The translations under genes were made by a program, and so were the position numbers. Below, piece by piece: positions 26,385 through 53,932 of a stretch of DNA of 56,436 bases. The stretch is from the NCBI GenBank assembly GCA_026415675.1, contig JAOAGQ010000040.1, positions 1-56,436 on the forward strand, given 5' to 3'. Source of the stretch: Syntrophorhabdaceae bacterium. Its GTDB lineage: Bacteria > Desulfobacterota > Syntrophorhabdia > Syntrophorhabdales > Syntrophorhabdaceae. The stretch's first letter is position 1, and every line of letters begins with the position of its first letter. The notes beneath the pieces are model-generated. The model was not told the DNA's origin. It saw nothing but the letters and a program-made list of their open reading frames with translations, and ran no database searches.

Positions 26385-26491
26385 GATAAACTATAAAATC
26401 AATAGTGTTTAATTAAAATTTTGATGCTCCATTTAAGCAAAAGGAGGTGATATTTTTTGATTTAATATTTTCATTAAAAAAGGGGGTTATT

Positions 26492-28339
26492 ATGGCTGAA
26501 ATAAAGAAGTTTCCTTATGCAAAGGAAGTAAAATTGCCACCGGAACTGGAAGGGTGGGAGGAGATGTACCCCCATCACCGTCTCTTTACAGAGGAGATGG
26601 AGGAGTGGGATAACGGACATTTCTGGTTTCAAGACAAGATACATGCCCCTGAACCTATGTATCCCCTCGATGACATATTTCAGGAAGCATGGCAGATAGC
26701 CCTCTCCCAGTACACCACAAGGGTCTTCTGTATCCCCCCTGCCCAGGGTATCGCCCAGAGGATGCTCGGATGCTACATGTACATCACCCCTGTTGAACCG
26801 CCCCCACAGGAGATCATAGGAGAAAAGGCGGAACTATTCGGAAAAAGGGTCTTCTATGTCTTTGAGAACTACGATAACCTCTGGGCAAAATGGCTGGAGA
26901 AGTTCCAGGCCCTGGGGAGGGAGATGGCAGCGGTCAAAATCCCTAAGGAGCTACCGAAGTTTGTGCCTGACGAAGATGTATTCCCCTACCCTAAGGGGAC
27001 GACAGAGGCCTATGAGATCATAGAATCCTTCAACACCATCATCAGTCAGATCTTTAAGGCATGGCAGTACCATTTCGAGTATCTAAACCTCGCCTACCTC
27101 GCCTATCTGATGTTCGTGGATACGGCACGAAAACTCTTCCCTGGGATAAAAGAGAGTACCATAGGGAAGATGGTAGCCGGAGCAGAGGTCTCCATGTTCA
27201 GGCCCGAAGAGGAGTTGTGCAGATTGAGTAGGCTTGCCGTAGCCCAGCCTCCGGTCAACGAGATCTTAAAAAAAGAGATCCCCGCAGAGGAGAAGATAAG
27301 GGAGTTAAAATCTACAGAAGCGGGGAGGGTATGGCTCGAGGAGATGGAGAGGATTAAGGACCCGTGGTTTTATGTATCCTGCGGGAGCGGCTGGTACCAC
27401 TACGAGGGGAGCTGGATAAACAAGATGGACATCCCCTTCAGTTATATGAAGAGCTATGTGGAAAGGCTCGAAAAGGGAGAGAAGATAGAGAGGTCGTTGA
27501 CCGCGATCTCTGAAGAGAGGGACAGGATAGTAGATGAGTACAGGGAACTCATAAAGTCAGAAGATGACAAAAAATCCTTTGATGATGCTTATAAGGTTGT
27601 GAGAACTATATACAGATACGCGGAAGACCATCTGTTCTGGGTAGAGCACTGGCTCCACACCATATGGTTTGAAAAAATAAGGGAATTCGGGGAGGTGCTG
27701 ACAAAGTATGGCCTCCTTAAGCAATCGGACGATATCTTTCTCTTCAATAGATTTGAAGTCCCTATGCTCCTCGAAGACCTCGCCACATCGTGGGCCTTAG
27801 GGGTCAATGCCCCCCACAGAGGTACATACTGGATGAAAATCGCTGAAAAAAGGGAGAAGATACTTGAGGCGGCGAAGAAGTGGATCCCTGTGCCTGCCCT
27901 TGGTGTACCTCCGGAAGAGGTCTCGGAGCCTTTTACCGTTATGCTCTGGGGGATCACAACAGAGAAGGTAGCGGAATGGATAAAGGGAACGGCGGTTGAA
28001 ACGAAAGATATTACAGAGATAAAGGGATTTGCCTCCTCAACCGGGATAACCGAAGGACCGGCAAGGGTACTTAAACTCCTCGAAGATGTGGTACAACTAC
28101 AACCGGGGGAGATTATGGTGGCCCCGTGCACCAACCCGTCATGGGCCCCTGTGTTTACAAAGATAAAGGCCGCGGTTACCGATATCGGAGGCTTAACATC
28201 CCATGCCGCAATCGTATCAAGGGAATACGGTCTTCCTGCGGTGACAGGGACCGGTATCGCCACATCGGTCATAAAGACCGGGGATATCATAAGGGTAGAC
28301 GGTAGCACAGGCACGGTGACAATAATAAAGAGGGCATAA
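26492..28339 (+). CDS. ppsA: Phenylphosphate synthase subunit 1
   Basis: 615 residues from ATG 26492 (AAGGGGG upstream). The C-terminal PEP-utilising mobile domain carries the phospho-histidine motif G-G-L-T-S-H-A-A, with His571 the predicted phosphate carrier. The N-terminal 480 residues are the tryptophan-rich region seen in phenylphosphate synthase subunit 1 of Thauera (about 70 kDa), which resembles the central part of PEP synthase. Reaction: phenol + ATP + H2O to phenylphosphate + AMP + Pi, with subunit 2. A GTG at 26447 would add 15 residues but lies inside a second Shine-Dalgarno. Close relatives could act on other phenols, so the substrate is inferred. Confidence 0.85.
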   Translation: MAEIKKFPYAKEVKLPPELEGWEEMYPHHRLFTEEMEEWDNGHFWFQDKIHAPEPMYPLDDIFQEAWQIALSQYTTRVFCIPPAQGIAQRMLGCYMYITPVEPPPQEIIGEKAELFGKRVFYVFENYDNLWAKWLEKFQALGREMAAVKIPKELPKFVPDEDVFPYPKGTTEAYEIIESFNTIISQIFKAWQYHFEYLNLAYLAYLMFVDTARKLFPGIKESTIGKMVAGAEVSMFRPEEELCRLSRLAVAQPPVNEILKKEIPAEEKIRELKSTEAGRVWLEEMERIKDPWFYVSCGSGWYHYEGSWINKMDIPFSYMKSYVERLEKGEKIERSLTAISEERDRIVDEYRELIKSEDDKKSFDDAYKVVRTIYRYAEDHLFWVEHWLHTIWFEKIREFGEVLTKYGLLKQSDDIFLFNRFEVPMLLEDLATSWALGVNAPHRGTYWMKIAEKREKILEAAKKWIPVPALGVPPEEVSEPFTVMLWGITTEKVAEWIKGTAVETKDITEIKGFASSTGITEGPARVLKLLEDVVQLQPGEIMVAPCTNPSWAPVFTKIKAAVTDIGGLTSHAAIVSREYGLPAVTGTGIATSVIKTGDIIRVDGSTGTVTIIKRA

Positions 28340-28352
28340 AACATAAAAAGGG

Positions 28353-28376
28353 CATGGAGGGGGTTGCCCCTCCATG
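28353..28376 (+). repeat. Perfect 10-bp hairpin between ppsA and ppsB
   Basis: CATGGAGGGG, loop GTTG, CCCCTCCATG, followed by TCTTAAAA. It lies 13 bases after the ppsA stop. Without a proper U-run it is more likely a partial terminator or mRNA-processing and stability element, and could set the subunit ratio. Confidence 0.65.
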
Positions 28377-28401
28377 TCTTAAAATCCATGGGGGATTATT
28401 T

Positions 28402-29475
28402 ATGGGTGAAAAATGGATTTACTGGCTTCATGAACTGGGCCAGGAGGATAACAACATCGTCGGTAAAAAATGTGCGAACTTAGGGGAATTGACAAAGGCA
28501 GGCTTTAGGGTTCCTCCGGGTTTCGCATTGTCCGTTGAGGCGTATAAAAGGTTTATGGATAAGACAGGTGTGGCAGAACGTCTTCAAGGGTATCTTAAGG
28601 ATTTCACTGCAGATCCCGACAATATGGCCCATGCGATGAGATTCGAAGAGGCATCAAGGGAATTAAGGGCCATCGCCGAATCTGTAAGTATGCCCCCTGA
28701 CATGGAAGAGACCGTTAAAACTTACTATGAGGCCCTGTGTAAAAATGCAGGTTGCAAGGAACTCTATGTGGCTACCCGTTCTGCCGGGCCTGTAAGCCAT
28801 CCTGGCCAGTATGAGACGTACCTCAATGTATGTGGGGAAGAGGATGTGGTGAAGAACATTATAAAGGTATGGTCGAGCACACTGAATACCCGATCTTTAA
28901 TCGCCAGGGCAAGGCTCGGGCTATCCCTCTACTATGACCCCATAGGGGTTGCCGTACTGACCATGGTGGATGCAAAGGCTGCGGGGGTGATCTTCACCTT
29001 AAATCCTGTAAACGGCGATACATCGAAAGTGGCGATAGAGGGGAGCTTTGGTTATGGGGAGGCGGTCGTCTCGGGGAATGTAACCCCCGATAGATATCTC
29101 GTCGATAAGGTCACCCTTGAGATAGAGGAGAAGGTGATCTCCGATAAGGGGAGCGAGTATGTGTTAAACCCCGATACAAGGGAGATGGAATACAGGGAAC
29201 TACCCCCTGAAAAGAGAAAGGCCCCCTGTCTTGAAGACAGAGAGGTTATAGAACTCACAAAGATAGCAAAAAAGGTGGAGGCCCATTTCCGTTGTCCCCA
29301 GGATATAGAGTACTCCATCTCCAGAACCATCCCGTTTCCCGAGGGTATCTTTCTTGTCCAGGCAAGACCTGAGAGTGTATGGGGCAAGAAGAAGAAGGAA
29401 TCGGTACTGGGAAAGAAGACAGGTTTTCAACTTTTGTTGGAAAGGGCTACAACGCCTGTTAAGGTCAGGCTTTAA
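28402..29475 (+). CDS. ppsB: Phenylphosphate synthase subunit 2
   Basis: 357 residues from ATG 28402; an ATG at 28354 lies within the hairpin and is rejected. The sequence matches the N-terminal ATP-binding (PPDK/PEP-synthase) domain: G-x-K-C-A-N-L-G-E-L near the start, V-A-T-R-S-A near 127, A-A-G-V-I-F-T-L-N-P, G-S-F-G-Y-G-E-A-V-V-S-G and the terminal Q-D-I-E-Y...Q-A-R-P. About 40 kDa, the size of Thauera subunit 2. It transfers the beta-phosphate of ATP to His571 of PpsA. No CBS-domain subunit 3 (PpsC) follows. Confidence 0.87.
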   Translation: MGEKWIYWLHELGQEDNNIVGKKCANLGELTKAGFRVPPGFALSVEAYKRFMDKTGVAERLQGYLKDFTADPDNMAHAMRFEEASRELRAIAESVSMPPDMEETVKTYYEALCKNAGCKELYVATRSAGPVSHPGQYETYLNVCGEEDVVKNIIKVWSSTLNTRSLIARARLGLSLYYDPIGVAVLTMVDAKAAGVIFTLNPVNGDTSKVAIEGSFGYGEAVVSGNVTPDRYLVDKVTLEIEEKVISDKGSEYVLNPDTREMEYRELPPEKRKAPCLEDREVIELTKIAKKVEAHFRCPQDIEYSISRTIPFPEGIFLVQARPESVWGKKKKESVLGKKTGFQLLLERATTPVKVRL

Positions 29476-29503: not shown

Positions 29504-29884
29504 TCAATCCAACTCTATATCCAGGGTTACCACATCCCCATCCTTCAGGTTTAGGCTATCTTTTATGTGTACAGGGGCAACAACCTCAAGCTGAGAGGCG
29601 TCGTAGACCTCAACAAGGGGAAGGACGATACCGCAGTCGTATTTTCCGTCGATCCTTCCCCTGAAGATGAGGGCATCGCAAAAACCTGCTTCTTTGGGGA
29701 TGAGTCTATTCTTCCCTTTCTCTTTTAGGAGCGTCTGGATCTGATCACTATCGAGTCTTATGTTCAAGGTACCGGGAAAGGGATGGAAGTTAAGTTTCTC
29801 GTATAGCTCTCTTTCCACCCAGTCTATGGTGAGGAACTTCTTCGATTCCCCTATCCCGCTTACGATCCTCCCTTTGATTCTCAC
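29504..29884 (-). CDS. ribK: Archaeal-type CTP-dependent riboflavin kinase (DUF120)
   Basis: 126 residues, normal for RibK. The fold signature is clear: N-terminal G-R-I-V-S-G-I-G-E, central F-H-P-F-P-G-T-L-N-I-R-L, and C-terminal A-P-V-H-I-K-D-S-L-N-L-K-D-G-D-V, all aligning by eye with Methanocaldococcus RibK. The enzyme makes FMN from riboflavin using CTP, unlike bacterial RibF. Start GTG overlaps the ubiX stop (GTGA), so it is the last gene of the ubiD operon. The inferred job is supplying FMN to UbiX for prenyl-FMN, the cofactor of the three UbiD proteins. Its stop is 28 bases from the convergent ppsB stop. Confidence 0.88.
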   Translation of the reverse strand: MRIKGRIVSGIGESKKFLTIDWVERELYEKLNFHPFPGTLNIRLDSDQIQTLLKEKGKNRLIPKEAGFCDALIFRGRIDGKYDCGIVLPLVEVYDASQLEVVAPVHIKDSLNLKDGDVVTLDIELD

Positions 29885-30486
29885 TCTTTACTCACCTTTA
29901 CTATCCTTATACTCTCCTCCTCTCCCCATCTTTTGAAAAGGGAAGAGTCAATGCCAAAGAGGTCCAGGGCCTTCCCCAGGGTCTGGTTGATCAAATCTTC
30001 TATGGTCTTGGGTTTGTGATAAAAGGCAGGGACAGGGGGCATAACTATAGCCCCCATCCTTGTGACCTTCAACATCAATTCGAGGTGACCCTCATGGAGG
30101 GGGGTCTCCCTTACAAGGAGGAGGAGCCTTCTCCTCTCCTTGAGGGTTACATCGGCCGCCCTTACAAGGAGGTTCTGGTTAAAGGAATTGGCTATGGCGG
30201 ATAGAGACTTAATAGAACAGGGGATCACCATCATCCCATCGGTTCTGTAAGAACCGCTTGCAATGGCAGAACCTATATCGTCTATATCATAGACTTTAGA
30301 GGCGAGAGACTCAAGATCCTCCTTTGTGTATTCCGTTTCGATATAGAGGTTTTTAAGCCCCGAATTACTGATAACAAGATGTGTCTCTATCCCTATACTC
30401 TTCAGCACCTTAAGCATCTTAACTCCGTATATTACCCCCGTTGCCCCTGAGATGCCAAGAATTATCCTTCTATTCACCTTTCTCAC
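29881..30486 (-). CDS. ubiX: Flavin prenyltransferase UbiX
   Basis: 201 residues. It prenylates FMN with dimethylallyl (mono)phosphate to make prFMN for UbiD-type decarboxylases. Visible signatures are G-I-S-G-A-T-G-V-I-Y-G at the N-terminus, the G-S-Y-R-T-D-G-M-M-V-I-P-C-S segment, and R-R-L-L-L-L-V-R-E-T-P-L with the downstream M-P-P-V-P-A-F-Y. Start GTG follows GAGGAGGGATAG and abuts the preceding ubiD stop. Tight coupling on both sides indicates cofactor supply to the operon. Confidence 0.95.
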   Translation of the reverse strand: MRKVNRRIILGISGATGVIYGVKMLKVLKSIGIETHLVISNSGLKNLYIETEYTKEDLESLASKVYDIDDIGSAIASGSYRTDGMMVIPCSIKSLSAIANSFNQNLLVRAADVTLKERRRLLLLVRETPLHEGHLELMLKVTRMGAIVMPPVPAFYHKPKTIEDLINQTLGKALDLFGIDSSLFKRWGEEESIRIVKVSKE

Positions 30487-31830
30487 CTATCCCTCCTCTT
30501 TTATTGAGCTTAGAACCTTTCTAATCCTCTCTTCGTCACCCTTTATCACTACCGCCCTGCCTTCGAGAGATTTGCCATAAGAGGTAGCGTTTATCCCTAC
30601 CTTTGCAACACCTGTGCCTCTTCTCGCCTCCGGGTCTATTACCTGTCCTGAAAGTCCCGGGATGATCAGGATGTCCTCATCGGCATGGCATCTTGTGATC
30701 ACCGCCCATTCCACATCGTTAAGGTCATGCCCATCCACATCCTCATCCACCACAACCACCTTCTTTATCATGGGGAACGAGAGCAGAAAGACGATGAGGC
30801 TTTTTATCTTATCTCTCCCTACCGGTCTTATTTTTGCCACAACGGAGGAGCCGAAGGTCTTTTTGACAAAATTAATCTCCATCAAAAAAGGAAACAGCCT
30901 CTTTGCCCTCTCTTCCATATGGGCGCCGCTTACAAAGTCAAGGTACATATCCCCTTCAATGCTCGCAGGGAGAAGGACATGGTAGAGGGGGTTTTGTTGA
31001 AATGAAATCCTCCTGACCCTCAAGGTGGGGGTCTTCTCAACATTCATATAGTAACCGCTTATCTCCCCCAGGGGTCCGTCCTTTCTCAAATCGTGGTAAT
31101 CGAGGAACCCCTCAAGGATGATCTCAGACCCGAAGGGGACATCTATAAGGGAATCAAAGGATTCCATCACCTCCACCGCTTCTCCCTTTATACCCCCTGT
31201 CACCTCCAGTTTGTCGACGTCATGGGGCACCTTGAGGGCCATGGATATAAACATTATGGGATCGACCCCTATCACAACGGAGAGGGGCATATCTTTCCCT
31301 GAAGACCTATACTTCTCCATAATATCCGTTAAGGGGGGGTTTACGAGGGATACACCGAGCCTATTATTACCCCTGTACTCCATCCTGTGAATCCCTCTCC
31401 CTACAATGCTTGTCTCGGGGTCTACCGCTGAGACGATGGATGTTGTGATATAAGGGGCTGAATCCTCCACATAGTGCTTGAGGATGGGGAGAAAGTCCAT
31501 GATTTCATCGTCATCCTTTATCTCTATCGTGGAGTAGCCCTTTCTCTCAACCTTCACCTTCTTTTCAACCCTTTCCACCCCTTTTAAAAAGGCATCATAG
31601 GGGTTCTCAGCCCCATCGAATAGAAGGGAAAACGCCCTCTCCTCGGGGACGAGGTTGGCAACCACCCTGCAATCGTATCCATCGACATCCTCGAATAGGA
31701 GCACCCTTTTCTTCTGGGAAAGCCTCTCTATGATCTCAGGCATATCCTCCCTAAAGACCCTATCTTTTATGGGCAAAACCCACCCTTTCTGATCCATAAG
31801 TGACAGGTACTCTCTTAAAGACCTGACCAT
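30487..31830 (-). CDS. UbiD-family (de)carboxylase, third paralogue
   Basis: 447 residues. Features of the UbiD fold: S-I-V-G-R-G-I-H-R-M near the prFMN/metal site, and the catalytic E-I-I-L-E-G...G-P-L-G-E-I-S-G-Y-Y block. It differs from the other two in having I-H-R-M-E-Y-R and N-N-R-L-G-V in place of their Y-R segment, closer to stand-alone anaerobic UbiD enzymes. It may be an independent hydroxybenzoate (de)carboxylase, or an extra core subunit. One base separates it from the small subunit gene; its stop abuts ubiX. Confidence 0.9.
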   Translation of the reverse strand: MVRSLREYLSLMDQKGWVLPIKDRVFREDMPEIIERLSQKKRVLLFEDVDGYDCRVVANLVPEERAFSLLFDGAENPYDAFLKGVERVEKKVKVERKGYSTIEIKDDDEIMDFLPILKHYVEDSAPYITTSIVSAVDPETSIVGRGIHRMEYRGNNRLGVSLVNPPLTDIMEKYRSSGKDMPLSVVIGVDPIMFISMALKVPHDVDKLEVTGGIKGEAVEVMESFDSLIDVPFGSEIILEGFLDYHDLRKDGPLGEISGYYMNVEKTPTLRVRRISFQQNPLYHVLLPASIEGDMYLDFVSGAHMEERAKRLFPFLMEINFVKKTFGSSVVAKIRPVGRDKIKSLIVFLLSFPMIKKVVVVDEDVDGHDLNDVEWAVITRCHADEDILIIPGLSGQVIDPEARRGTGVAKVGINATSYGKSLEGRAVVIKGDEERIRKVLSSIKEEG

Positions 31831-31831
31831 G

Positions 31832-32086
31832 TTATAACCCTTCGGGGAATATGTTTATCTCTTCCAGGATCTTCATAGAGCAGGGCTTCTCTATGAGTTG
31901 TCCCCGGCCGAGCCTAATCCATAATCTCTCGGGATACTTATTCTCATCCTTCGAGACTACGAATTTTGCATATTTACCCCTGTACTTACTCTTGCCCGGG
32001 GTTAAATCCCTTATTACACCGATAATCTCTTCGTCCTCAGCCAAGTCTTTGAAATCTTTCGATATAAATGTATCGTATACTGCCAT
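31832..32086 (-). CDS. Phenylphosphate carboxylase gamma-like small subunit
   Basis: 84 residues, basic-acidic mix without membrane segments or cysteine pairs; L-W-I-R-L-G-R-G-Q-L is the most distinctive segment. Size (about 10 kDa) and position between two UbiD genes match PpcC, the gamma subunit of phenylphosphate carboxylase in Thauera. Assignment rests mainly on context and size. AAGGAGG precedes the start. Confidence 0.65.
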   Translation of the reverse strand: MAVYDTFISKDFKDLAEDEEIIGVIRDLTPGKSKYRGKYAKFVVSKDENKYPERLWIRLGRGQLIEKPCSMKILEEINIFPEGL

Positions 32087-32103
32087 AAATACCTCCTTAT
32101 CCC

Positions 32104-33549
32104 CTAATCTTTAAAACCGTATCTTTTCCAGTTTGAAAGCACCTTCTCCTGTATGTCCTTCGGGTATACATTATCAAAGGATACCTTAATAGGTACCATG
32201 GATGTGGGCCATTCGGGTGGGAAGAGACAGTCGAATACCACCTTCGGTGCCCTTCCATAGAGCCTCTCTTCAGGACTTGCAAAGGGGTTCAAGGGAGTAC
32301 CGACACCGTGTTCCTCGATCCTTATCCCCCTCGACGGATGGCATTTTGTACACAGGGCATGGATTATCTCGTCTTTATTGTAGATGTCTGTCTTGTCATC
32401 GACGACCATGACCATATGGAACCATGGACCCAACTTGCTTCCAAAGACGAGTTGACCGATCTGGGTTGCGATATTTGCATATATGGGTTTTACCCCAACC
32501 ACAACAAAGTGGTGTGTCGATTCGGGCAACATGAAGACCCCTGTCACGGGGATTCCCTGGTCTTTCAACATCCTCTCCATCTCAAGCCCCAGGGAGAAGG
32601 ACCTCAAAAGCTGCCCCTCATCGGTAGGTACCCCCATATTCGAGATGGCCATTATGGGGTCTTTTCTCATGGTTATCGCCGTTACCCTGTATACCGTCCT
32701 CTTGTCCCGAGGGCTCGTCCTGTAACCTGTATACTCCCCGAACGGGGCCTCCTCGAGGGTGACATTCGGAAGGACAACCCCTTCTATGATGATCTCCGCA
32801 TGGGCAGGGACATAGAGGTCGCAGGTCTCACACTTTACAAGCTCCACAGGTTCACCCATGAGCATCCCTGTAAATTCTGCCTCTGATATAGGTGATGGCG
32901 CGCAACTCGCAATGGCGGATAGGGGATCGGGGTTTATTACCGTGGCAAAAGGCATGGGGATGTTCCTCGGGACATATTTGTTGTAGAACATCTTTCCCAT
33001 ATCGGAGAAGGCAAGGACAGGGCCTACCATCGTCTTTTCATCGTAGACCATCTGCCTGTACATCCCCCAGTTCACAAAGTCCGTATCGTAATCCTTTGCC
33101 ACAACAAAATGCCATGTCCCTATGTATCTCCCCCCGTCGCCGTCATGGACCATCGGTGCGGGAAGGTCGAAGAGGTTCACCTTATCCCCTGTGATCACCA
33201 CCTCTTTGCAGGGGGCATCCTTTTTATCCAATATCTTCGGCTTTATGGGCTCTCCCATCGTCCTTTTCAGGTACTCCTTAGAGATATCGGGGATAGAGGT
33301 TTCAGGGTCAAGGCCGAAGGAGACGGCAAGCCTCCTGTATGTTGCGATTGGCGCCCCAAATGCGGTAAAGCCTGGATAGTCTTTTATCTTTTTGAAAAAA
33401 ACCGCTGGGGCCTTTTTCTCGCATACCCTTCTAACAATCGCCCCCATCTCAAGGTCCCAATCGACCTCATCTGTAATCTCTATAAGATCCCCTGTCCTTT
33501 TTAATGCCTCTATGTAAGTCCTGTTGTCCTTGTAATATTTATACGCCAT
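32104..33549 (-). CDS. UbiD-family phenylphosphate carboxylase core subunit
   Basis: 481 residues, close to PpcA/PpcB size. Typical segments: D-G-G-R-Y-I-G-T-W, V-N-W-G-M-Y-R-Q-M for the prFMN/Mn/K site, and the catalytic E-I-I-I-E-G...A-P-F-G-E-Y-T-G-Y block with its glutamates. It probably forms the alpha or beta core subunit with the 34686 paralogue and binds prFMN made by UbiX. Predicted reaction: phenylphosphate + CO2 to 4-hydroxybenzoate + phosphate. Which of the pair is alpha cannot be settled by eye. Confidence 0.88.
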   Translation of the reverse strand: MAYKYYKDNRTYIEALKRTGDLIEITDEVDWDLEMGAIVRRVCEKKAPAVFFKKIKDYPGFTAFGAPIATYRRLAVSFGLDPETSIPDISKEYLKRTMGEPIKPKILDKKDAPCKEVVITGDKVNLFDLPAPMVHDGDGGRYIGTWHFVVAKDYDTDFVNWGMYRQMVYDEKTMVGPVLAFSDMGKMFYNKYVPRNIPMPFATVINPDPLSAIASCAPSPISEAEFTGMLMGEPVELVKCETCDLYVPAHAEIIIEGVVLPNVTLEEAPFGEYTGYRTSPRDKRTVYRVTAITMRKDPIMAISNMGVPTDEGQLLRSFSLGLEMERMLKDQGIPVTGVFMLPESTHHFVVVGVKPIYANIATQIGQLVFGSKLGPWFHMVMVVDDKTDIYNKDEIIHALCTKCHPSRGIRIEEHGVGTPLNPFASPEERLYGRAPKVVFDCLFPPEWPTSMVPIKVSFDNVYPKDIQEKVLSNWKRYGFKD

Positions 33550-33561
33550 ATTTCCTCCGGT

Positions 33562-34092
33562 TCATATTATCTTTTCAATAAAGCTTTCCCATTTACCCTG
33601 GGCTTTGAGTATAAATTCAGCAAGTTCCCTGACCACACCTTTGCCTCCCCCGGCAGATGTCACATAATCGGCAATCTGTCTTGCCTCCACTGAGCCATCC
33701 GAGGGGGCAACGGAAAAACCTACCCTCTTCATGATGCCTAAGTCTATCATCTCATCTCCCACATAACAGAAGTCGCCATCGGTTAAACCTGACTCCTTCT
33801 CAAATTCATCGAGCTTGGACATCTTTGCCGATGTACCCCAGAGTTTATCGAGGGGCACCCCGTATATCTTTGCCACCTGTTCGTCGGTCCTCGTGATCTT
33901 GCTCGTTAAAAAGCTGACACCGATCCCTGACTCCATAAGGGCCTTGCAACCGAGGCTATCGTGGAGGGAAAAACATTCTGATTTTGTCCCATCCTGAGCA
34001 TAGTAAAGCACACAGTCTGTCAAGACCCCGTGGATATCGAGTATGACAAACTTCACCTTTTTTGCCTTTTCTGCCGCTTCTTCTCTTCCCAT
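33562..34092 (-). CDS. KdsC-like HAD protein, PpcD-type delta subunit
   Basis: 176 residues of the HAD phosphatase fold, KdsC-like and without a cap. Motif I is D-I-H-G-V-L-T, so the usual second aspartate (acid/base) is histidine. Motif II S in F-L-T-S-K, motif III lysine in T-S-A-K, and motif IV G-D-E-M-I-D are intact. In Thauera the delta subunit (PpcD) is a HAD protein required for carboxylation of phenylphosphate. This copy keeps its metal-binding residues and is the likelier active one of the pair. It lies 12 bases from the upstream HAD gene. Confidence 0.85.
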   Translation of the reverse strand: MGREEAAEKAKKVKFVILDIHGVLTDCVLYYAQDGTKSECFSLHDSLGCKALMESGIGVSFLTSKITRTDEQVAKIYGVPLDKLWGTSAKMSKLDEFEKESGLTDGDFCYVGDEMIDLGIMKRVGFSVAPSDGSVEARQIADYVTSAGGGKGVVRELAEFILKAQGKWESFIEKII

Positions 34093-34103
34093 ATCTTACC
34101 TCC

Positions 34104-34661
34104 TTATTTGTATCCCATCTTTGTTACCTTATCGACCCATACATCCCATTTACCCATCGCCCTTAAAATGAACTCCGCCACCTCCCTTATCGCCCCCCTA
34201 CCTCCAGGGGCCGCTGTTATGTAGTGGGCTATCTCTTTCACCTCATCTATGGCATCTGAGGTGGCAACGGCAAAGCCCACCATCTTCATCGCACCAATAT
34301 CTGTTATTTCACAGCCTATAAAACCGATTTCACTATCGGTGATTCCCATCTCCGCCTTCAACTCTTTCAGTTTTTCTATCTTACTCTTCGTCGGGTAGTA
34401 AAATTTATCGAGCTTTAACTCCTTTGCCCTGAATAGCCCCTCCCCATCGATAGAGGTCGTATCGATAAAGGCAACCCTTATTTCATTCGCAGAAAGGGAG
34501 AGGTCTCCAAAACCGTCCATGTGCCAGAAAGTGTACTGCCTCCTCCCTTCCACATCACAGAGTACGGTGTTAGGGGTCAGAACCCCGTGCACATCATGGG
34601 CAAAGAGTTTAATATTTCTTGCCCTCTCCTTTGCCTTCTCCATATCCTTTTCGAATGCCAT
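34104..34661 (-). CDS. KdsC-like HAD protein with degenerate motif IV
   Basis: 185 residues, paralogous to the neighbouring 176-residue HAD protein. Motif I is H-D-V-H-G-V-L-T, again with His for the second Asp. Motif IV reads G-C-E-I-T-D instead of G-D-E-x-x-D, so a Mg2+ ligand is lost, and motif II is less clear (F-I-D-T-T). It may therefore be a structural partner of the active copy, or bind a phosphorylated intermediate without hydrolysing it. The shared C-terminal G-G-R-G-A-I-R-E-V-A-E-F-I-L shows recent common ancestry. Confidence 0.83.
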   Translation of the reverse strand: MAFEKDMEKAKERARNIKLFAHDVHGVLTPNTVLCDVEGRRQYTFWHMDGFGDLSLSANEIRVAFIDTTSIDGEGLFRAKELKLDKFYYPTKSKIEKLKELKAEMGITDSEIGFIGCEITDIGAMKMVGFAVATSDAIDEVKEIAHYITAAPGGRGAIREVAEFILRAMGKWDVWVDKVTKMGYK

Positions 34662-34685
34662 CTTTTCCTCCTCATATATGGTTTA

Positions 34686-36101
34686 TTAATCGATACCAAA
34701 TTCCTTCCACCTTGCCTTTATCCTCGTCAATACGTCCTCTGAGAGCTTAATCTCCGTTGGTTTCACCTTCCATTCGAAGGGTATGGTTGCATCGAGGATG
34801 ATCCTCGATGTGATGAACTTGTTCTCATCAGGTCCGATCGATGGGTCAAGGGGTGTAGACCTCCCCCTGTTTATTATCTGTGTACCCCTTGCCGGGTTGT
34901 ACCGGGTACCAAGGGCCCACCAGACCCTTGGAAGGTCATCCGCCTCTATATCGTCATCCACTATAATCACCGCCTTAACACCGTATGTACCGGTGTTGCT
35001 CGCGATGACCGCTGCCCCCACCTGGTCTGCATGCCCGGGGTACATCTGCTGGACCGATACGACCACGATAAAACGGCCTGATGCCTCAGGCAATGTGTAG
35101 ACCGATTTTATCCCGGGGATTTCCATCTTCGTTAAATCTGTCCAGAGGCTTGCATTCCGGGTAAAGGCGTATAGCATGTGCTGGTCCCCAACAGGTCTAC
35201 CTACACTCGTCTCCCAGAGGATGGGGTTATTCCTGTAATATACCCTCTTCACCTCAAGGGCAGGTTTTGGTATGGGTTTTATGAGTTCTTCTGTGTAATA
35301 GCCTGTGTATTCTCCAAAAGGTCCCTCGTTTTTCAGCTGCTGGGGATCTATCTCCCCTTCAAGGACGATCTCTGCCGCAGCAGGGATGGGAAGGCCTGTG
35401 AGCTGGGCCTTGACGATTTCCACGGGCTCACCCCTCAAAGAACTGACCACATCATAACCACTTTTTGCCTTTACCACCGTTGCCGCACTGGCAAAGATAT
35501 GGAGGGGGTCACCTCCGATTATGGCGCAGGCAGGCATCTTTTTCCCCGCCTTCCCGTACTTCTTCAGTATCCTGTCCGCGGTCTTTCCCTTCAATATCTG
35601 GACCCCAACGGTCTTTTCATCAAGGATACCCATCCTGTATGTGCCGAGGTTTATCCTTCCCGTTTCAGGATCCTGAATGACCATAAAGACTGCGGTTCCG
35701 AAATAGCGCCCTCCATCGAGTTCATAGAACTTAGGGGAAGGGAAGGCAAATGTATCCACCTTATCCCCATCGACTATGTTCTCAAAGATGGGACCATCCT
35801 CCACCTCCTTTGCAGGTATCACCTCCTTTACCGCAAGGTTCACCCATTCCCGTGTCAACTGAACCATAGTAAGCTCGGGGCTCTTCCCCAGTATCATCGC
35901 CAGCCTCTGGGTTGTACCAAAGGCACCGGTCAATACAGGGCTTTTATAACCCTTTACATTCTCAAATAGTAGGGCAGGACCGCTCTTCTCCTCCACAAGC
36001 CTCGCTATATGGGAAAGCTCGAGATTCCAGTCCACTTCCACCTTTATACGTTTTAATTGCCCCTCCTTCTCGCATAGTGATATAAATTCCCGTAAATCCA
36101 T
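34686..36101 (-). CDS. UbiD-family phenylphosphate carboxylase core subunit, first gene of operon
   Basis: 471 residues. D-G-G-R-Y-F-G-T-A, I-N-L-G-T-Y-R-M-G and the catalytic E-I-V-L-E-G...G-P-F-G-E-Y-T-G-Y-Y block identify a full UbiD enzyme. Of the three paralogues it looks the most like a canonical UbiD. First gene of an eight-gene leftward operon with short gaps. AAAGGAGGGG precedes the ATG, and a strong promoter with a palindrome lies 70-100 bases upstream. Alpha or beta identity is not settled. Confidence 0.9.
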   Translation of the reverse strand: MDLREFISLCEKEGQLKRIKVEVDWNLELSHIARLVEEKSGPALLFENVKGYKSPVLTGAFGTTQRLAMILGKSPELTMVQLTREWVNLAVKEVIPAKEVEDGPIFENIVDGDKVDTFAFPSPKFYELDGGRYFGTAVFMVIQDPETGRINLGTYRMGILDEKTVGVQILKGKTADRILKKYGKAGKKMPACAIIGGDPLHIFASAATVVKAKSGYDVVSSLRGEPVEIVKAQLTGLPIPAAAEIVLEGEIDPQQLKNEGPFGEYTGYYTEELIKPIPKPALEVKRVYYRNNPILWETSVGRPVGDQHMLYAFTRNASLWTDLTKMEIPGIKSVYTLPEASGRFIVVVSVQQMYPGHADQVGAAVIASNTGTYGVKAVIIVDDDIEADDLPRVWWALGTRYNPARGTQIINRGRSTPLDPSIGPDENKFITSRIILDATIPFEWKVKPTEIKLSEDVLTRIKARWKEFGID

Positions 36102-36439: not shown

Positions 36440-37537
36440 TTATGGGACAACACACCTTACCCCCTCTCCCTCCAGGGCAGGCCTAAAACACCCGTTGTCA
36501 GAGATGCAACCCGAATCTTCCCTGTCCCCGGAGGCCCACCTTTTTATCAATCCCGGTTCCCTGATCAGAGGCCTGCTCAGAGAGACGTAGTCTGATATGC
36601 CCTCTGATATAAGCCTCTCTGCCCAGTCAAAGGAGCGGATACCACCGACAAGCATAAGGGGTACACTTATCCTCGATTTATATCTCTTTGCCTCCTCAAG
36701 GTAATAAGGGGTATTCCCTGATTTATCCTTTGTCCTTTTCCTTGCAGGGAAGAATTCCCCGTATACACCTGCCACATGGTTTCCCCCACTTAACTCAATC
36801 GCATCGGTGGACGCTTCTTCCAGCATGGATGCCACCTCCAGCATATCCTCTACCGTATAGCCCCCCTCAAGATAGTCCTGGGAGTTTAGTTTTACAAGGA
36901 TAGGGAAGCCCTCCCCCACCTCTTTCCTTATGGCCCTTACTACATCGATCAGTATCTTTGCCCTTCCTTTCACATCCCTGCCGTATTCATCCTCCCTCCT
37001 GTTGAAATAAGGGGATAAAAACTGACTTAAAAGGTATCCGTGGGCAGCGTGTATCTGAACCGCATCTGCCCCTGCTGCCTTTGCCCTGCCGGCTGCCTCT
37101 TTGAATTTTGTGACCACATCCACTATCTCCGCCACCTCCATAGCCCTGCACTGGACTTCCCCTCTCCCCTCCATCGTAGAAGGCCCAAGACGTACCGAAT
37201 CCGCCGACTTCAGGGCATACCTTCCTCCGTGGGATATCTGTACCCCTATCTTCCCCCCGGCATCATGGACCCTCTCAATCATCCCTTTAAGGGACATCAT
37301 ATGCCTGTCAGAATATAGGCCTAACTGGTTCGGTGCGGCAATGCCCTCGGGAACTATATACGCATGGCCCGTTATGATAAGCCCAACACCGCCCTTTGCG
37401 AGGTTCACCATAAAATCCGTTAACCTTTCCGTTACATACCCATCAACCGTTGCAAGACCCTCCCATGTCGCAGACCTTACAAACCTGTTCTGTAAAATCA
37501 TCCCGTTTATCTTTGTCACATCGAATAACCCACCCAC
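36440..37537 (-). CDS. Old-Yellow-Enzyme/NADH:flavin oxidoreductase family protein
   Basis: 365-residue FMN-binding TIM barrel. N-R-F-V-R-S-A-T at the N-terminus, the Q-I-S-H-G-G-R segment, the Q-I-H-A-A-H-G-Y-L-L-S-Q-F-L-S-P substrate-site motif and V-G-G-I-R-S FMN site are present. Three C-terminal cysteines (C-I-S-D-N-G-C and a later Cys) resemble the partial Fe-S site of larger 2,4-dienoyl-CoA reductase-like members, though only one domain is present. It lies upstream of the ubiD operon on the same strand but 338 bases away. Substrate unknown. Confidence 0.87.
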   Translation of the reverse strand: MGGLFDVTKINGMILQNRFVRSATWEGLATVDGYVTERLTDFMVNLAKGGVGLIITGHAYIVPEGIAAPNQLGLYSDRHMMSLKGMIERVHDAGGKIGVQISHGGRYALKSADSVRLGPSTMEGRGEVQCRAMEVAEIVDVVTKFKEAAGRAKAAGADAVQIHAAHGYLLSQFLSPYFNRREDEYGRDVKGRAKILIDVVRAIRKEVGEGFPILVKLNSQDYLEGGYTVEDMLEVASMLEEASTDAIELSGGNHVAGVYGEFFPARKRTKDKSGNTPYYLEEAKRYKSRISVPLMLVGGIRSFDWAERLISEGISDYVSLSRPLIREPGLIKRWASGDREDSGCISDNGCFRPALEGEGVRCVVP

Positions 37538-41481: not shown

Positions 41482-42525
41482 TTAAATATTCTTTATTATA
41501 CCTTCTGCCATTTTTTCAAGGGTATATACTTCGTCGCTTAAGCCCGCCTCATATATTGACCTGGGCATGCCGTACACAATACAGGATTCCTCTGCCTCTG
41601 TTATGATCTTTCCTCCCTGAGCTTTTATCCATGCAGCGCCCTCTTTACCGTCGGAACCCATTCCTGTCATAACAACACCTAAGACACGGTTTCTGTATAT
41701 CTCGGCGGCAGAGCGAAACATAACATCTACAGAGGGTTTGTGCAGGGTGTCAAAGGGTCTTAAATCAAGGTGGGCTACCACAATATCATCCATACGTCTT
41801 TTAAAAGTCAGATGCCTGCCGGCAGGGGCGATAAGAACGATACCTCTCTCAAGGACATCCCCTTCTTTTGCCTCTTTAACCGTAAGGGATGAAGCCTCGT
41901 TCAGTTTATTCGCAAAAGCCTCTGTATAACCCACGGGCATATGGATGACGATTGCGAGGGGTACGGGAAAATCTTTTGGCAACTGGGGTATTAAATATTT
42001 GAGCGCCTGGGGGCCCCCGGTTGATATACCTAACACAACTATATCTACGTTTTCTGCGGTTTCCTTTGTTGCGATTGTTTGGGGTAACTCTTTCTTTTCA
42101 ACATATGGGGCTATATGTTTAATGGGCACCTCTGAGGCGATCTTCACCTTCTCAACGATCTCATCGGCAATCTCGTATATCCTCTCCGTTGCAAGGGCAG
42201 TTGGTTTCTGGACAAAATCTACCGCCCCTAAATCGAGGGCCTTCAAAGCAAGTTCACTTGTATCACTGGCAATACTCAATATCACCACAGGGATCGGCCT
42301 TTTTTCCATCTGTTTTTTCAAAAAACCAACACCGTCGAGATTGGGCATAATGAGATCAAGGGTCACTACATCAGGGTTCAACCTCTCGACCATTTCAAGG
42401 GCTTCCTCACCATCCCTTGCTGCGCCTATTACTTCTATAAAGGGGCTTCTCGATAATATCTGTCTCACCACCTTTCTCACATAGGCAGAATCATCAACTA
42501 TAAGTACCCGTATGATATCTCCCAT
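41482..42525 (-). CDS. cheB: Chemoreceptor glutamate methylesterase
   Basis: 347 residues. Receiver domain with D57 as acceptor, then a methylesterase domain with catalytic Ser168 (G-I-S-T-G-G), His195 (V-I-H-M-P) and Asp near 292 (G-M-G-S-D-G). It demethylates or deamidates MCPs when phosphorylated by CheA. Complete and of normal length. Confidence 0.95.
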   Translation of the reverse strand: MGDIIRVLIVDDSAYVRKVVRQILSRSPFIEVIGAARDGEEALEMVERLNPDVVTLDLIMPNLDGVGFLKKQMEKRPIPVVILSIASDTSELALKALDLGAVDFVQKPTALATERIYEIADEIVEKVKIASEVPIKHIAPYVEKKELPQTIATKETAENVDIVVLGISTGGPQALKYLIPQLPKDFPVPLAIVIHMPVGYTEAFANKLNEASSLTVKEAKEGDVLERGIVLIAPAGRHLTFKRRMDDIVVAHLDLRPFDTLHKPSVDVMFRSAAEIYRNRVLGVVMTGMGSDGKEGAAWIKAQGGKIITEAEESCIVYGMPRSIYEAGLSDEVYTLEKMAEGIIKNI

Positions 42526-42572
42526 AGGCCCTCCTTTTTATTTTAGGGCTATATAACATAAAATTGCAACGC

Positions 42573-43409
42573 TCATTTAACATAACAGAATGCCCCCCCT
42601 ATCTCCTTTAACGTAAAATCGCTTGTAACCCTAAGAAGGGACTCCGCAGCACCAACGAAAAGATAGCCGGGGCATAGCATCTTTTCATAAAAAAACTTTA
42701 CTACCCTCTGGATAACACTCTCGTTAAAATAGATAAAGACATTCCTGCAGAAGATCACGTGGGATGCTGCCAAATCGTAAATCTTATGCGTCTCTAACAG
42801 ATTTGCCACCCCGAATTTTACCCTCCTCTGTATATCTTCTGAGACCTTAAACATATTCCCCCTTTTTGTGAAGTATTTTTCTTTTAAATTTGAAGGGGTG
42901 CTTCTAAAAGACCTTTCCCTGTAAAGCCCTTCCTTTGCCCTCTCTATCGATCTTCTACTCGCATCCGTTGCGTTTATCTCTATCGGCATCTTTTCAAACC
43001 AGCCCGCCTCGTTTAATTCTATCGCTATGGTCAAAGGTTCCTCTCCTGTGGCACAGGCGGCACTCCATATCCTTAAAACCTCTTCCTTTTTTTTCTTATA
43101 ATGCTCGGGCACGATAATATCAACGAGGGCCCTTATCTGGTCTGTCTCCCTCCAGAAATACGTCTCGGGGACAGTGAGGGCATCGAATACCCTCTCCCAT
43201 TCCCTCTCGTTTTCCCTATCGTATTTCAAGTAATAATAGTAATCGAGAAAGGAATTAAAACCCCTCTCGAGGACAAGGGGTGATAGCTTATCCCCCAATA
43301 TATCTCTCTTTCCATCCTCATAAAAAATGCCTGTCTTTTCCTTAATAAGCTCCCTCAAAAGGATAAATGCACTATCAGGAAGCCCCAGGGTCTCACTGTA
43401 GAATCCCAC
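42573..43409 (-). CDS. cheR: Chemoreceptor methyltransferase
   Basis: 278 residues with the CheR N-terminal helical domain and SAM site I-W-S-A-A-C-A-T-G-E-E-P, plus the C-R-N-V-F-I-Y-F motif. It methylates MCP glutamates using SAM. The start overlaps the 3' end of the PAS-HEAT gene by 17 bases, showing that the two belong to one transcription unit. Confidence 0.95.
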   Translation of the reverse strand: MGFYSETLGLPDSAFILLRELIKEKTGIFYEDGKRDILGDKLSPLVLERGFNSFLDYYYYLKYDRENEREWERVFDALTVPETYFWRETDQIRALVDIIVPEHYKKKKEEVLRIWSAACATGEEPLTIAIELNEAGWFEKMPIEINATDASRRSIERAKEGLYRERSFRSTPSNLKEKYFTKRGNMFKVSEDIQRRVKFGVANLLETHKIYDLAASHVIFCRNVFIYFNESVIQRVVKFFYEKMLCPGYLFVGAAESLLRVTSDFTLKEIGGAFCYVK

Positions 43410-46137
43410 TCCCCTTCACCCTCATCAATACCTTTCTTGCGGCGTTTCTCACCGTTTCATCACTGTCGTATAATGCAACCTTTGAAAGTTGTTTCTCACC
43501 GAACCTGCTCCCGAGATAACCCAGGGCATTTACCGCAGAGAGTCTCACCTCCCCATCCGCATCGTCGAGGGCAGATACAATCGCCTCTGTGGCATCGGGG
43601 TGTTTCATCCGGGCAAGGATATCTATGGTAGAACTCCTTACGTGGGGGTTGGGATTATTTAAACCTTCTGCAATCCATTCGATGTATCTCCCCATCAGTT
43701 GAGAGAGCTTCGAAATACATAAATTTCTCCTATTTTTAAAGGATGTAAGCTGAAGGAGTGCGGAAATCGCGTCTCTACTTCCGATTTGGCTTAAAGATTC
43801 TATTGCCATTTCAGCCACCTCCTCGTTTCCCTCGGAGCTTGCGATCCGCTTCAATATATTGACCGCCTCAACCCCTCCCCGTAAACCCAGGGCACGAATC
43901 GTCTCCATCTTTATTAATCTGTCCCTTGAATGGACGGTGGAAAGGAGGAGATTTAATGCTTCGGGGTGCGTGATCTTTCCCAGGGCAACTACGGTTGTCC
44001 TTGCGATGTCGATATTTTCGTTTTCTATAAATCTTTTGAGAACCTCTACCGCCTTTTCACTCCCTATCTTTCCTATAGCCTCAATGGCAGAAATACGGAC
44101 CTGCTCCGCATTATCCTTATCTATCATCTCTACCAATATATCGAGAACTTCGGGGTCTCCCCTCTCCCCTGCTGCCCTTGCCGCAAAGTATCTAACCCAT
44201 GGGTCAGGGTCGGACAAAGCCTTTTTAAGGTAAATAAACGCCCCCTTCTCCTCTATTTGACCGAGGGCAGATGCAGCCGCCCCACGTACTTTCGGGGTAT
44301 CTTTCTCTATTGCATAAGCGATGACATCTAGCGCCCTTTTATCTTCGAGAAAAGGGAGACATTGAATGGCGGCGTAGCGGACATTCTCCGCCTCATCCTT
44401 GCATCTTTCTAAAAGGAGGTCTATACACTCCTCGTAGCCGAAATAGCCCGCTATCCTTACCGCCGATTCCCTTACTATCGGGTCTTCGTCCTTGAGGGGG
44501 GTAAGCATCCTCTTGGACATATCGGGATGGCCTATGGAATTGAGGGCCGATATCACCGCCTGTCTTACGCCTATATCCTTCTCCCCTATGTGTCCTATCA
44601 GTGCCTCATAGGCATCCCTGTCCCCTATCTTTGCCAGTGCCCCTGCGGAAAGTATAGCAAGTTCGGGATCATCGTCGAGAACGGATATCAATACTGGTAA
44701 TGCCCTTCTGTCCCCTATACGGCCTAAGGCAATGATAGCCGATTTCCTTATCTCTCTATCCTCTGAATAGGCCATATCTATAAGAAGGTTCACAACTTTC
44801 TGCCCATGTTTGACGATAGAATCTATTATTTCTTTTCTCGCAGAGGTCTTACCCAGTATCCCCGTCAATGCCCTGCCTATCTCTTCCCCCTCAAGCCAAC
44901 CGAGAATCATAGCGATGATATGGAGTAAATCATCGGGGGCACTATCGAGGAGCCCTATTATCTTCTCCGCTACGGTCTTGCTTATTGACCTTTTTACTGT
45001 ATCTGCAATTACCTCCCCTTCTCCGTATTGCTCGTTATAACGTTCATAGATGGCAGCAATAGCTTTGAGTATGGAGGAAATATTGGTGTCAGTCCTGTCC
45101 ATTAATGAAAAAAGATGGGGTATCACATCTTCATTGCCGAGTACACCTATCGCATCAACGGCAGGACCTGCAAACATCTCATCATCGAGGAGGTGTACAA
45201 GTCTCGGCACCACCCTCTCATCTCCTATGCTTACAAGGGCATCTATCGCAGGGAAGGTAAGGAAAAAGTCTTTGGTCTCGAGAATTTCGAGCAAAGGCTC
45301 CACAGCATCCTCTGCCTTTATCTTTCCCAGGGCCTCTACCGCATGGTATCTCACATTGATATCTTCATCGTTTAAGGCTTTTATAAGATAGGGTACTGCC
45401 TTTTTATCCCTTATTTCACCGAGGGAAAGGGCTGCATACTGTCTCAACTCATTGTCCTCGGAAGATAGAAAATCTATTAGTGCCTCCGTTACCTCAAGTT
45501 CGCTCATGGTGAGTATCTGGAGTGCACTGTTTAAGATATTGATATTTTTGTGCTCCTCCTTTAGTGCCTTGAGAAGGGACCCTACTGTATTGAAATCCGT
45601 TCGACTCCTCAAGGCATCAACTGCCACCTTTCTCACCCGCCAACTCTCATCCTTTAAAACTTCCTTTATGATACTCTTATCCTCAATGGACTCTTCCTGA
45701 ATGAGATATCTCACGGCAGAAAGTCTTTCTACTTCGTTTTTGCTTTTTAACTTTTCAGAAATCAGCCTTTCCTTCTCCAGCCTTTCCGTCATATCTTCAA
45801 CGGTGACGATGGTACCCACTATCTCCTCGTTCTCCCTAAGGGGGGCTATGGTCACCCTCTGCTGCATAGTCTCATAAAATACAGAGGGCTTCAAAGGCTT
45901 ACAGGGAATGAGATGGCGGTGAAATAAAGGGGATAGAACCTCTACAACACCGTTTTCGAGGACATTTTGAAACCTTTTTCTCAGATGCTTCTTATCTAAA
46001 TCGGGCGCAACGGTATCGAGGGGTTTATCCTTTACCTCCGATTTTTTGATGCCCGTTGCCCCCTCGAGCCATTCATCCCAGGTTTTGATCTTCAGATTTC
46101 TATCCGTTGTAAATATCCCTATAGACCCCATACCCAT
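43393..46137 (-). CDS. PAS plus HEAT-repeat protein within the che operon
   Basis: 914 residues. Residues 1 to about 125 are a PAS domain of the same subtype as the GGDEF and HD-GYP proteins (T-T-D-R-N-L-K-I, M-Q-Q-R-V-T-I-A-P-L, E-D-M-T-E-R). A short coiled coil is followed by some 750 residues of HEAT/PBS-lyase-like repeats of about 31 residues: repeated A-V-x-A-L-G-x-I and D-x-x-V-R-x-x-A. This gives a long curved scaffold for protein binding. No enzyme domain. The gene sits between mcp and cheR and overlaps cheR. I infer a sensor-scaffold that docks on the chemosensory array; no described Che component has this layout to my knowledge. Confidence 0.9.
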   Translation of the reverse strand: MGMGSIGIFTTDRNLKIKTWDEWLEGATGIKKSEVKDKPLDTVAPDLDKKHLRKRFQNVLENGVVEVLSPLFHRHLIPCKPLKPSVFYETMQQRVTIAPLRENEEIVGTIVTVEDMTERLEKERLISEKLKSKNEVERLSAVRYLIQEESIEDKSIIKEVLKDESWRVRKVAVDALRSRTDFNTVGSLLKALKEEHKNINILNSALQILTMSELEVTEALIDFLSSEDNELRQYAALSLGEIRDKKAVPYLIKALNDEDINVRYHAVEALGKIKAEDAVEPLLEILETKDFFLTFPAIDALVSIGDERVVPRLVHLLDDEMFAGPAVDAIGVLGNEDVIPHLFSLMDRTDTNISSILKAIAAIYERYNEQYGEGEVIADTVKRSISKTVAEKIIGLLDSAPDDLLHIIAMILGWLEGEEIGRALTGILGKTSARKEIIDSIVKHGQKVVNLLIDMAYSEDREIRKSAIIALGRIGDRRALPVLISVLDDDPELAILSAGALAKIGDRDAYEALIGHIGEKDIGVRQAVISALNSIGHPDMSKRMLTPLKDEDPIVRESAVRIAGYFGYEECIDLLLERCKDEAENVRYAAIQCLPFLEDKRALDVIAYAIEKDTPKVRGAAASALGQIEEKGAFIYLKKALSDPDPWVRYFAARAAGERGDPEVLDILVEMIDKDNAEQVRISAIEAIGKIGSEKAVEVLKRFIENENIDIARTTVVALGKITHPEALNLLLSTVHSRDRLIKMETIRALGLRGGVEAVNILKRIASSEGNEEVAEMAIESLSQIGSRDAISALLQLTSFKNRRNLCISKLSQLMGRYIEWIAEGLNNPNPHVRSSTIDILARMKHPDATEAIVSALDDADGEVRLSAVNALGYLGSRFGEKQLSKVALYDSDETVRNAARKVLMRVKGSGILQ

Positions 46138-46152
46138 CCTATTACTGATAAA

Positions 46153-48246: not shown

Positions 48247-48260
48247 GTTATATACCTCCT

Positions 48261-48725
48261 TCACCTGTTTTCATGTTCAAACAGTTTTTTATTATCAGTG
48301 AGTTTTAAAACCTCATCTATGTTTAATATCAAGACAAGCGTGTCCTCTAACGTTGCCACACCCTCGAGATATTTCCCGCTGAGACCGGATATCGCCTCAG
48401 GGGGTGGGGTTATCGCATCTTTCGGTATGGAAATGAATTCCCGGGCATTATCCACAATAAGCCCCACCTTACGGCTACCCCTTTGGACAACGATAATCCT
48501 CGTTTTTATATCGTATTCCACCTTTTCAAAGCCGAATCTTGCCCTAAGATTGATGGCAGGTATCACCTCACCCCTTAAAAACACGAGACCTTCTACAAAA
48601 CTCGGGGCGTTCGGAACAGGCGTTATATGTTCCACCATCTCCATCTGCTGAACATCGTTACTTTTTACCGCATATGTGGTCCCCACAAGTTTAAAGAGTA
48701 TATAGTGTTCTCTCTCTTCAGGCAT
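48261..48725 (-). CDS. cheW: Receptor coupling protein
   Basis: 154 residues from ATG 48725 with AAGGAGG; a GTG at 48734 lies in the Shine-Dalgarno. Single CheW domain (Y-I-L-F-K-L-V-G-T-T-Y-A-V, R-G-E-V-I-P-A-I-N-L-R). It links CheA to the MCP. Between cheA and mcp in the operon. Confidence 0.93.
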   Translation of the reverse strand: MPEEREHYILFKLVGTTYAVKSNDVQQMEMVEHITPVPNAPSFVEGLVFLRGEVIPAINLRARFGFEKVEYDIKTRIIVVQRGSRKVGLIVDNAREFISIPKDAITPPPEAISGLSGKYLEGVATLEDTLVLILNIDEVLKLTDNKKLFEHENR

Positions 48726-48754
48726 GTAATACACCTCCTTTCAAGACCTAAAGT

Positions 48755-51573: not shown

Positions 51574-51714
51574 CCTGCTATAACGTAAGTTTTGGATAAA
51601 TTTTATTCATTGTGGGCATAAAACGAAATAGGGGAAAGGCAGGATTTTTTCAAAAAAAATACACTAAAAAATTTCAGTTTTGAATTTTCGTTCTAAACAG
51701 GATCATTTTGAAGA

Positions 51715-51873
51715 TTAGAGGTGAAAATGTTCAAAGAATTTCTCTATAAAAACAATAAGAAGAAGACCCAGGATTGTAATTATTATACTTTTCCAGTTCT
51801 CAACAACGAAATAGCACATAAAGATATACCATACAAACTGAAAAGGAGTAAGTAAAATCCATCCAGAACCCAT
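51715..51873 (-). CDS. Possible small hydrophobic ORF
   Basis: 52-codon ATG frame encoding a mostly hydrophobic peptide with two possible membrane helices. It sits in AT-rich sequence next to an intergenic repeat, with no good ribosome-binding site. A longer reading of the frame would translate the repeat itself and is not believable. Probably not a gene. Confidence 0.2.
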   Translation of the reverse strand: MGSGWILLTPFQFVWYIFMCYFVVENWKSIIITILGLLLIVFIEKFFEHFHL

Positions 51874-51941
51874 AAATAAATTATAGCATAGAAAAATAGG
51901 AACGATTTTGATTGTTCCTGGGGCGTTGCGATTTTTTATCA

Positions 51942-52047
51942 GCCACAGACAAAGGCAGATGGGTACAGATAAAAACACCTCCGTGTTCTCTGTGGGCTCT
52001 GTGAGAGACATTATAAATATCTGCCTTTATCCGATGTTATCTGTGGC
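51942..52047. repeat. Intergenic inverted-repeat element
   Basis: GCCACAGACAAAGGCAGAT (51942-51960) recurs inverted at 52019-52047 with about ten extra bases in the right arm. The interior carries CTCTGTGGGCTCTGTG-like direct repeats. This resembles small dispersed non-coding repeats of environmental anaerobes, perhaps MITE- or REP-like. It lies in the gap between the cheA group and the narL gene. Confidence 0.55.
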
Positions 52048-52090
52048 CAAAATTATTTTATTTATGATCTTTTATTGGGTAACCAAAAAA

Positions 52091-53917: not shown

Positions 53918-53932
53918 TTATGCCTCTTTTGC

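Follow-up and report, generated by a model that had tools for sequence, protein, structure and literature searches.

A Split Delta Subunit as the Probable Role of Paired KdsC-fold HAD Proteins in a Syntrophorhabdaceae Phenylphosphate Carboxylase Operon

Why does a phenylphosphate carboxylase operon carry two HAD proteins in the slot of its delta subunit, when one of them has lost residues of the catalytic motifs? The question is raised by the Syntrophorhabdaceae contig JAOAGQ010000040.1, whose full 56,436 nucleotides are referred to here as the window and which belongs to a genome of 2.56 Mb that is 99% complete. On its minus strand the genes follow the order ppcB, HAD1, HAD2, ppcA, ppcC-like, third UbiD, and ubiX, with intergenic gaps, from ppcB to ubiX, of 24, 11, 12, 17, 1, and 0 nt; the order of genes is conserved among relatives. 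The ppcB-like beta subunit (34686-36101) and the ppcA-like alpha subunit (32104-33549) are UbiD-family proteins that exceed the cut-offs of their models (670 bits on TIGR02724, cut-off 469, and 710 bits on TIGR02723, cut-off 565, respectively); the ppcC-like gamma subunit (31832-32086) scores below the cut-off of TIGR02725 (45 bits) and above the gathering score of PF09662 (50.8 bits). The operon continues with a third UbiD-family protein (30487-31830), named PpcX in PMC5946492, and a UbiX flavin prenyltransferase (PpcY/ORF8; 29881-30486) for the supply of prenylated FMN. Convergent with it, on the plus strand, a PEP-synthase-like pair (26447-29475), which is similar to the pps genes adjoining ppc operons elsewhere, encodes the phenylphosphate synthase subunits: a PpsA-like protein of the central/phosphohistidine type (26447-28339) and a PpsB-like protein representing the N-terminal ATP-grasp part (28354-29475). 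Phenol degradation under methanogenic conditions and the possession of Pps-Ppc genes have been described for Syntrophorhabdus (PMC10989887; PMC5946492).

For the coupling of phosphate loss to carboxylation by phenylphosphate carboxylase, delta is the decisive subunit. In Thauera, the only case known, the alpha-beta-gamma enzyme catalyzes exchange and carboxylates phenylphosphate only when delta is present, whereas delta by itself hydrolyzes phenylphosphate very slowly (PMC6114531). The explanation of the HAD pair that we favor, with somewhat better than even confidence, is that it is a split delta subunit, in which HAD2 cleaves phenylphosphate while HAD1 completes or caps the active site and provides the coupling to the UbiD-type carboxylase.

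HAD1 (34104-34661, minus strand, 185 residues) and HAD2 (33562-34092, minus strand, 176 residues) are 39% identical. Both are predicted with confidence to have the KdsC fold without a cap domain (pLDDT 90.6 and 94.2), and the best PDB matches of the models in a fold search are KdsC/YrbI structures (TM 0.84-0.91). A sequence-only reading of this locus had reported D-x-H-G in motif I of both proteins and, in the copy transcribed first, GCE in place of GDE in motif IV. These observations are correct: HAD1, which precedes HAD2 across a gap of 11 nt, has H22-D23-V24-H25-G26 and G116-C117-E118, whereas HAD2 has D19-I20-H21-G22 and G112-D113-E114. The divergence is, however, larger than was described, as a change in motif II had been overlooked, in which Asp67 of HAD1 takes the place of Thr63 of HAD2. 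The two residues coincide in the AlphaFold models, each being the last of the second core strand (residues 62-67 and 58-63, respectively), so that a slip in the alignment at motif II is unlikely. The motif I nucleophile, which is invariant, is kept in both proteins (Asp23 in HAD1 and Asp19 in HAD2), as are the motif III lysine and the last aspartate of motif IV. With respect to the catalytic residues of motifs II, III, and IV, HAD2 therefore has Thr, Lys, and Asp, whereas HAD1 has the Lys but Asp67 and Cys117 at the other two positions. The aspartate two residues after the nucleophile is replaced by histidine in both proteins and in 49 of 49 relatives; the earlier statement that the general acid/base is lost is overstated, since histidine can also act as an acid/base.

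A single alignment of the relatives of HAD1 and HAD2 with other members of the fold places histidine at the nucleophile+2 position in 24/24 HAD1, 25/25 HAD2, and 17/17 single-copy relatives, and aspartate in 7/7 KdsC and 14/14 classical PpcD sequences, a distribution that goes beyond chance. In a maximum-likelihood tree with KdsC as the outgroup, the delta-slot HADs with D-x-H-G, single and paired, form one clade (66/66 tree sequences, support 100/100). Support is 100/99 for the classical class, 100/100 for HAD1 and likewise for HAD2, and 97/85 for HAD1 and HAD2 as sisters; it should be noted that this last grouping unites two long branches, although when either is dropped the D-x-H-G clade still includes the other. 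Judged from these sequences, the descent of HAD1 and HAD2 from the D-x-H-G class is secure and their origin by a single duplication likely. Because the histidine is shared by single and paired D-x-H-G HADs, it is a class trait older than the duplication and not the cause of pairing, and D-x-H-G was discarded as a mark of paired HADs.

The combination of D-V-D-G with GDD is found in betaproteobacterial delta subunits (Aromatoleum isolates, Sulfuritalea, and others) and also in a few Chloroflexi, Desulfuromonadales, and Rhodospirillales; a second class in the same operon slot, from Desulfobacterota, Actinomycetes, and Clostridia-type MAGs, is D-x-H-G in every case. The idea that histidine might be typical of all PpcD was rejected, as the classical betaproteobacterial form has aspartate, but it does hold throughout this separate, monophyletic delta-slot class. 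The substitutions were not found in any member of the subfamily known to be an active phosphatase, as far as the solved KdsC-family chains among the alignments listed show; these have aspartate. Classical PpcD (Thauera/Aromatoleum, TIGR02726) resembles the window pair in its slot between ppcB and ppcA, its KdsC-like fold, the accompanying alpha, beta, gamma, and UbiX genes, and a synthase nearby. It differs in being one protein with D-x-D-G and GDD that, in Aromatoleum, scores 371-373 bits on TIGR02726, far above the cut-off of 281.95 bits, whereas the window has two D-x-H-G proteins at 124-132 bits, one of them without the motif II Thr and the motif IV Asp. One of the Aromatoleum proteins shares 96% identity with an Azoarcus plasmid gene that carries the annotation ppcD. 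As HAD2 (124.7 bits) and HAD1 (132.4 bits) both lie under the PpcD cut-off, which counts against the split-delta reading, they are referred to as delta-slot or PpcD-like rather than as PpcD.

The TIGR02726 cut-off omits the D-x-H-G class generally, those members that were scanned scoring 101-169 bits versus 282, and in annotation these delta subunits are probably misnamed Kdo phosphatases. D-x-H-G, split or single, provides a sequence rule by which to recognize, in methanogenic and sulfate-reducing phenol degraders, delta subunits that escape the current PpcD model. A search of the whole window genome with the PpcD model detected no KdsC-like gene besides HAD1 and HAD2 at E 0.001, and a Kdo phosphatase may be absent from this genome.

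Relatives of the pair, which are mostly from MAGs, were gathered by scanning genome contigs with a beta-subunit alignment; a query with HAD1 only gave no confirmed relatives. The 24 HAD1 and 25 HAD2 sequences are distinct and nonredundant, whereas counts of loci overlap because genomes recur between locus sets. Of 395 genomes drawn from the phylum, 17 have HAD2 (>279 bits) and 8 have a single D-x-H-G HAD (254-267 bits); a gap separates these scores from those of KdsC and HAD1, at about 185 bits. HAD1 lies beside HAD2 in all 17 HAD2-bearing genomes (15 in one list, and G014 and G018, whose motifs were read as well, in another scan), the order HAD1 then HAD2 is invariable in the named loci, and HAD1 never occurs without HAD2 among the loci seen. 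The motif II Thr and the motif IV Asp are retained in 25/25 HAD2; in 24/24 HAD1 sequences motif II has Asp and the motif IV Asp is replaced (by Cys in 19, Ser in 3, and Tyr in 2). The earlier proposal of an active/inactive heteromer is therefore well supported as regards an active/inactive pair, given the degenerate motifs II and IV of HAD1, the intact motifs of HAD2, and their constant order, and the two probably associate physically.

The pair also persists when its partners change. In the Syntrophaceae-type loci, the beta subunit is 87-88% and the alpha subunit 70-73% identical to that of the window, and the trees of these two subunits conflict. While the alpha and beta partners change type, HAD1 remains next to HAD2, and adjacency through such exchanges speaks for the pair as a single unit. 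A comparison of loci L067-L075, L082, and L085 with window positions 29881-36101 gives identities of 87, 74, and 76% for beta, HAD1, and HAD2 and of 72, 54, 37, and 60% for alpha, gamma, the third UbiD protein, and UbiX, a pattern suggestive of an operon pieced together from two modules. A rearranged form is present in a member of the Desulfobacterales (L089:4309-11188), where a ppsB-like gene is followed by the HAD pair together with alpha and gamma, and the beta gene, 2.4 kb from the pair, is of the single-HAD type. Lone ppcB-like genes are present at L081:10001-11410 and L083:2621-4039, with no HAD, alpha, or gamma gene in the flanking DNA examined; one of them belongs to Syntrophorhabdus PtaB.Bin027, where it is an additional copy beside that of a full operon.

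The single-copy D-x-H-G delta HADs (Deferrisomatales, Actinomycetes, and Clostridia MAGs) share with the pair the D-x-H-G motif, the slot, and the 100/100 clade, and have GDE, but they combine in one protein the catalytic residues and the flap and tail that the pair divides between two. Of the columns that the single-copy class conserves, both members of the pair retain 32, HAD1 alone 14, and HAD2 alone 13. The motif II Thr, the motif IV Asp, and nearby residues of the motif IV loop are among those that HAD2 alone retains, whereas those of HAD1 alone include His47, Gly50, and Phe51 of the flap and Lys178, Val179, and Gly183 near the C terminus; HAD1 retains the C-terminal tail (KVTKMGYK), which HAD2 lacks. 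In windows that were picked post hoc, the split is 6:1 for the motifs against 0:6 for the flap and tail (Fisher p 0.005). KdsC, the Kdo-8-phosphate phosphatase, which has the same fold (TM 0.84-0.91) and belongs to the same capless HAD subfamily, although with D-x-D-G and a different substrate, is an oligomer with its active site at the interface. In structures of the Escherichia coli enzyme, the active site reportedly lies between adjacent monomers, with the C-terminal tail reaching in, and the fold search lists a tail-truncated KdsC with product (PDB 3i6b). By analogy with this geometry, the division of residues suggests that one subunit supplies the chemistry and its neighbor the lid.

The course of events that we propose begins with duplication of an ancestral single D-x-H-G delta HAD within the slot between ppcB and ppcA. 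HAD2 would take the phosphoryl group from phenylphosphate onto Asp19, with a divalent metal (Mg2+ or Mn2+) bound by Asp19 and Asp113; Asp113-Glu114-x-x-Asp117, Thr63, and Lys90 are all kept, and HAD chemistry suggests that His21 would stand in for aspartate as the acid/base. HAD1, from which the metal-binding Asp and the phosphate-binding Thr are gone, would not be an ordinary HAD phosphatase, but it keeps the flap (H47-x-D49-G50-F51) and the C-terminal tail, both missing from HAD2. Since capless KdsC-type HADs build their site at a subunit interface, HAD1 most likely closes the HAD2 site across a heteromeric interface. By tying HAD2 to the carboxylase, HAD1 would allow phenolate to pass to the prenyl-FMN site and not leak as phenol. 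Replacement of the acid/base aspartate by histidine would be expected to slow plain hydrolysis, and the sequence-only suggestion that the HAD steers phosphoryl release is a possible fit, since a poor acid/base would favor phenolate transfer over hydrolysis; however, the classical delta subunit works with aspartate, so that the histidine is not essential to coupling in general.

HAD1 does not have the character of debris. Estimates of dN/dS between close relatives (Nei-Gojobori) are 0.02-0.07 for HAD1 and 0.04-0.13 for HAD2, which indicates that HAD1 is at least equally constrained. Further, 27 columns are conserved in at least 95% of HAD1 sequences and rare in the other D-x-H-G classes, as compared with 10 such columns for HAD2, and the HAD1-specific residues often lie near the old active site (His22, Trp46, Asp67, Ser70, Asp72, and Glu74). 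Strong purifying selection together with these class-specific invariants argues, at the level of sequence, that HAD1 is a functional, maintained pseudoenzyme, and it may have a second function, as 27 invariants exceed the need of a scaffold. The fold search also points to a possible precedent for a KdsC-fold pseudoenzyme, PDB 3ewi, from the C-terminal domain of animal CMP-sialic acid synthetase. This domain is not known to have a phosphatase role and serves oligomerization; it differs in being fused to another enzyme in an unrelated pathway.

The same conservation provides the basis for the strongest of the alternatives, that the HAD1 pocket has been repurposed and serves the carboxylase as a carrier or sensor, binding uncleaved phenylphosphate, phenolate, 4-hydroxybenzoate, or metal. 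His22, Asp23, His25, Trp46, His47, Asp67, Ser70, Asp72, and Glu74 are invariant or nearly so in HAD1, and the clustering of private columns by the old active site and the low dN/dS point in this direction, but the flap and tail retained from the single-copy class point to a role shared with the ancestor. We regard this reading as unlikely, and it should be recognized that a scaffold role and a new pocket in HAD1 are not mutually exclusive. It is improbable that the two proteins have separate roles, with HAD2 as the delta subunit and HAD1 assisting the assembly or maturation of the prenyl-FMN carboxylase subunits, a part that small partner proteins play for some UbiD enzymes. Both HADs are encoded in a UbiD/UbiX operon, and a chaperone, LpdD, is reported for a UbiD enzyme (PMC10865409); nevertheless, the same UbiD/UbiX genes are present without HAD1 in operons whose only HAD is of the D-x-H-G or D-x-D kind, and HAD1 is always accompanied by HAD2 among the loci seen. 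The presence of all the other catalytic residues in HAD2 would be compatible with the histidine being simply an alternative general acid/base and the proteins ordinary phosphatases of a phosphorylated aromatic, uncoupled from carboxylation, yet this appears very improbable, as the slot between ppcB and ppcA is invariant across phyla and a free phenylphosphate phosphatase beside phenylphosphate synthase would create a futile cycle. Finally, the view of HAD1 as a functionless, decaying duplicate, for which the loss of its motif II and IV residues might be cited, is rejected on its dN/dS and is further opposed by the private invariants, by an identity of 62-78% between families, and by reading frames that are intact in 24/24 cases and occupy the same slot.

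The split delta subunit therefore remains the preferred reading, and a bolder version of it can be put forward tentatively, as less likely than not: that delta function resides in a pair whose members, an acid/base-altered HAD and a pseudo-HAD with a rebuilt site, are both obligatory, with gated removal of the phosphoryl group and handover of phenolate within the complex. If true, a phosphatase would have been turned into a coupling device, with a dead paralog contributing part of the active site. As the catalytic residues and the flap and tail reside in two genes, each role can be tested separately.

The remainder of the window contains other genes of possible note. Directly upstream of ppcB, on the minus strand, is a gene for an Old-yellow-enzyme-family protein of 365 residues (36440-37537) that resembles the N-terminal half of BaiCD; it has no counterpart in the DNA around 80 named operon loci. 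A chemosensory cluster on the same strand (41482-56309) encodes CheR, CheB, CheW, CheA, a receptor, and response regulators, and inside it is a gene for a 914-residue HEAT-repeat protein (43393-46137).
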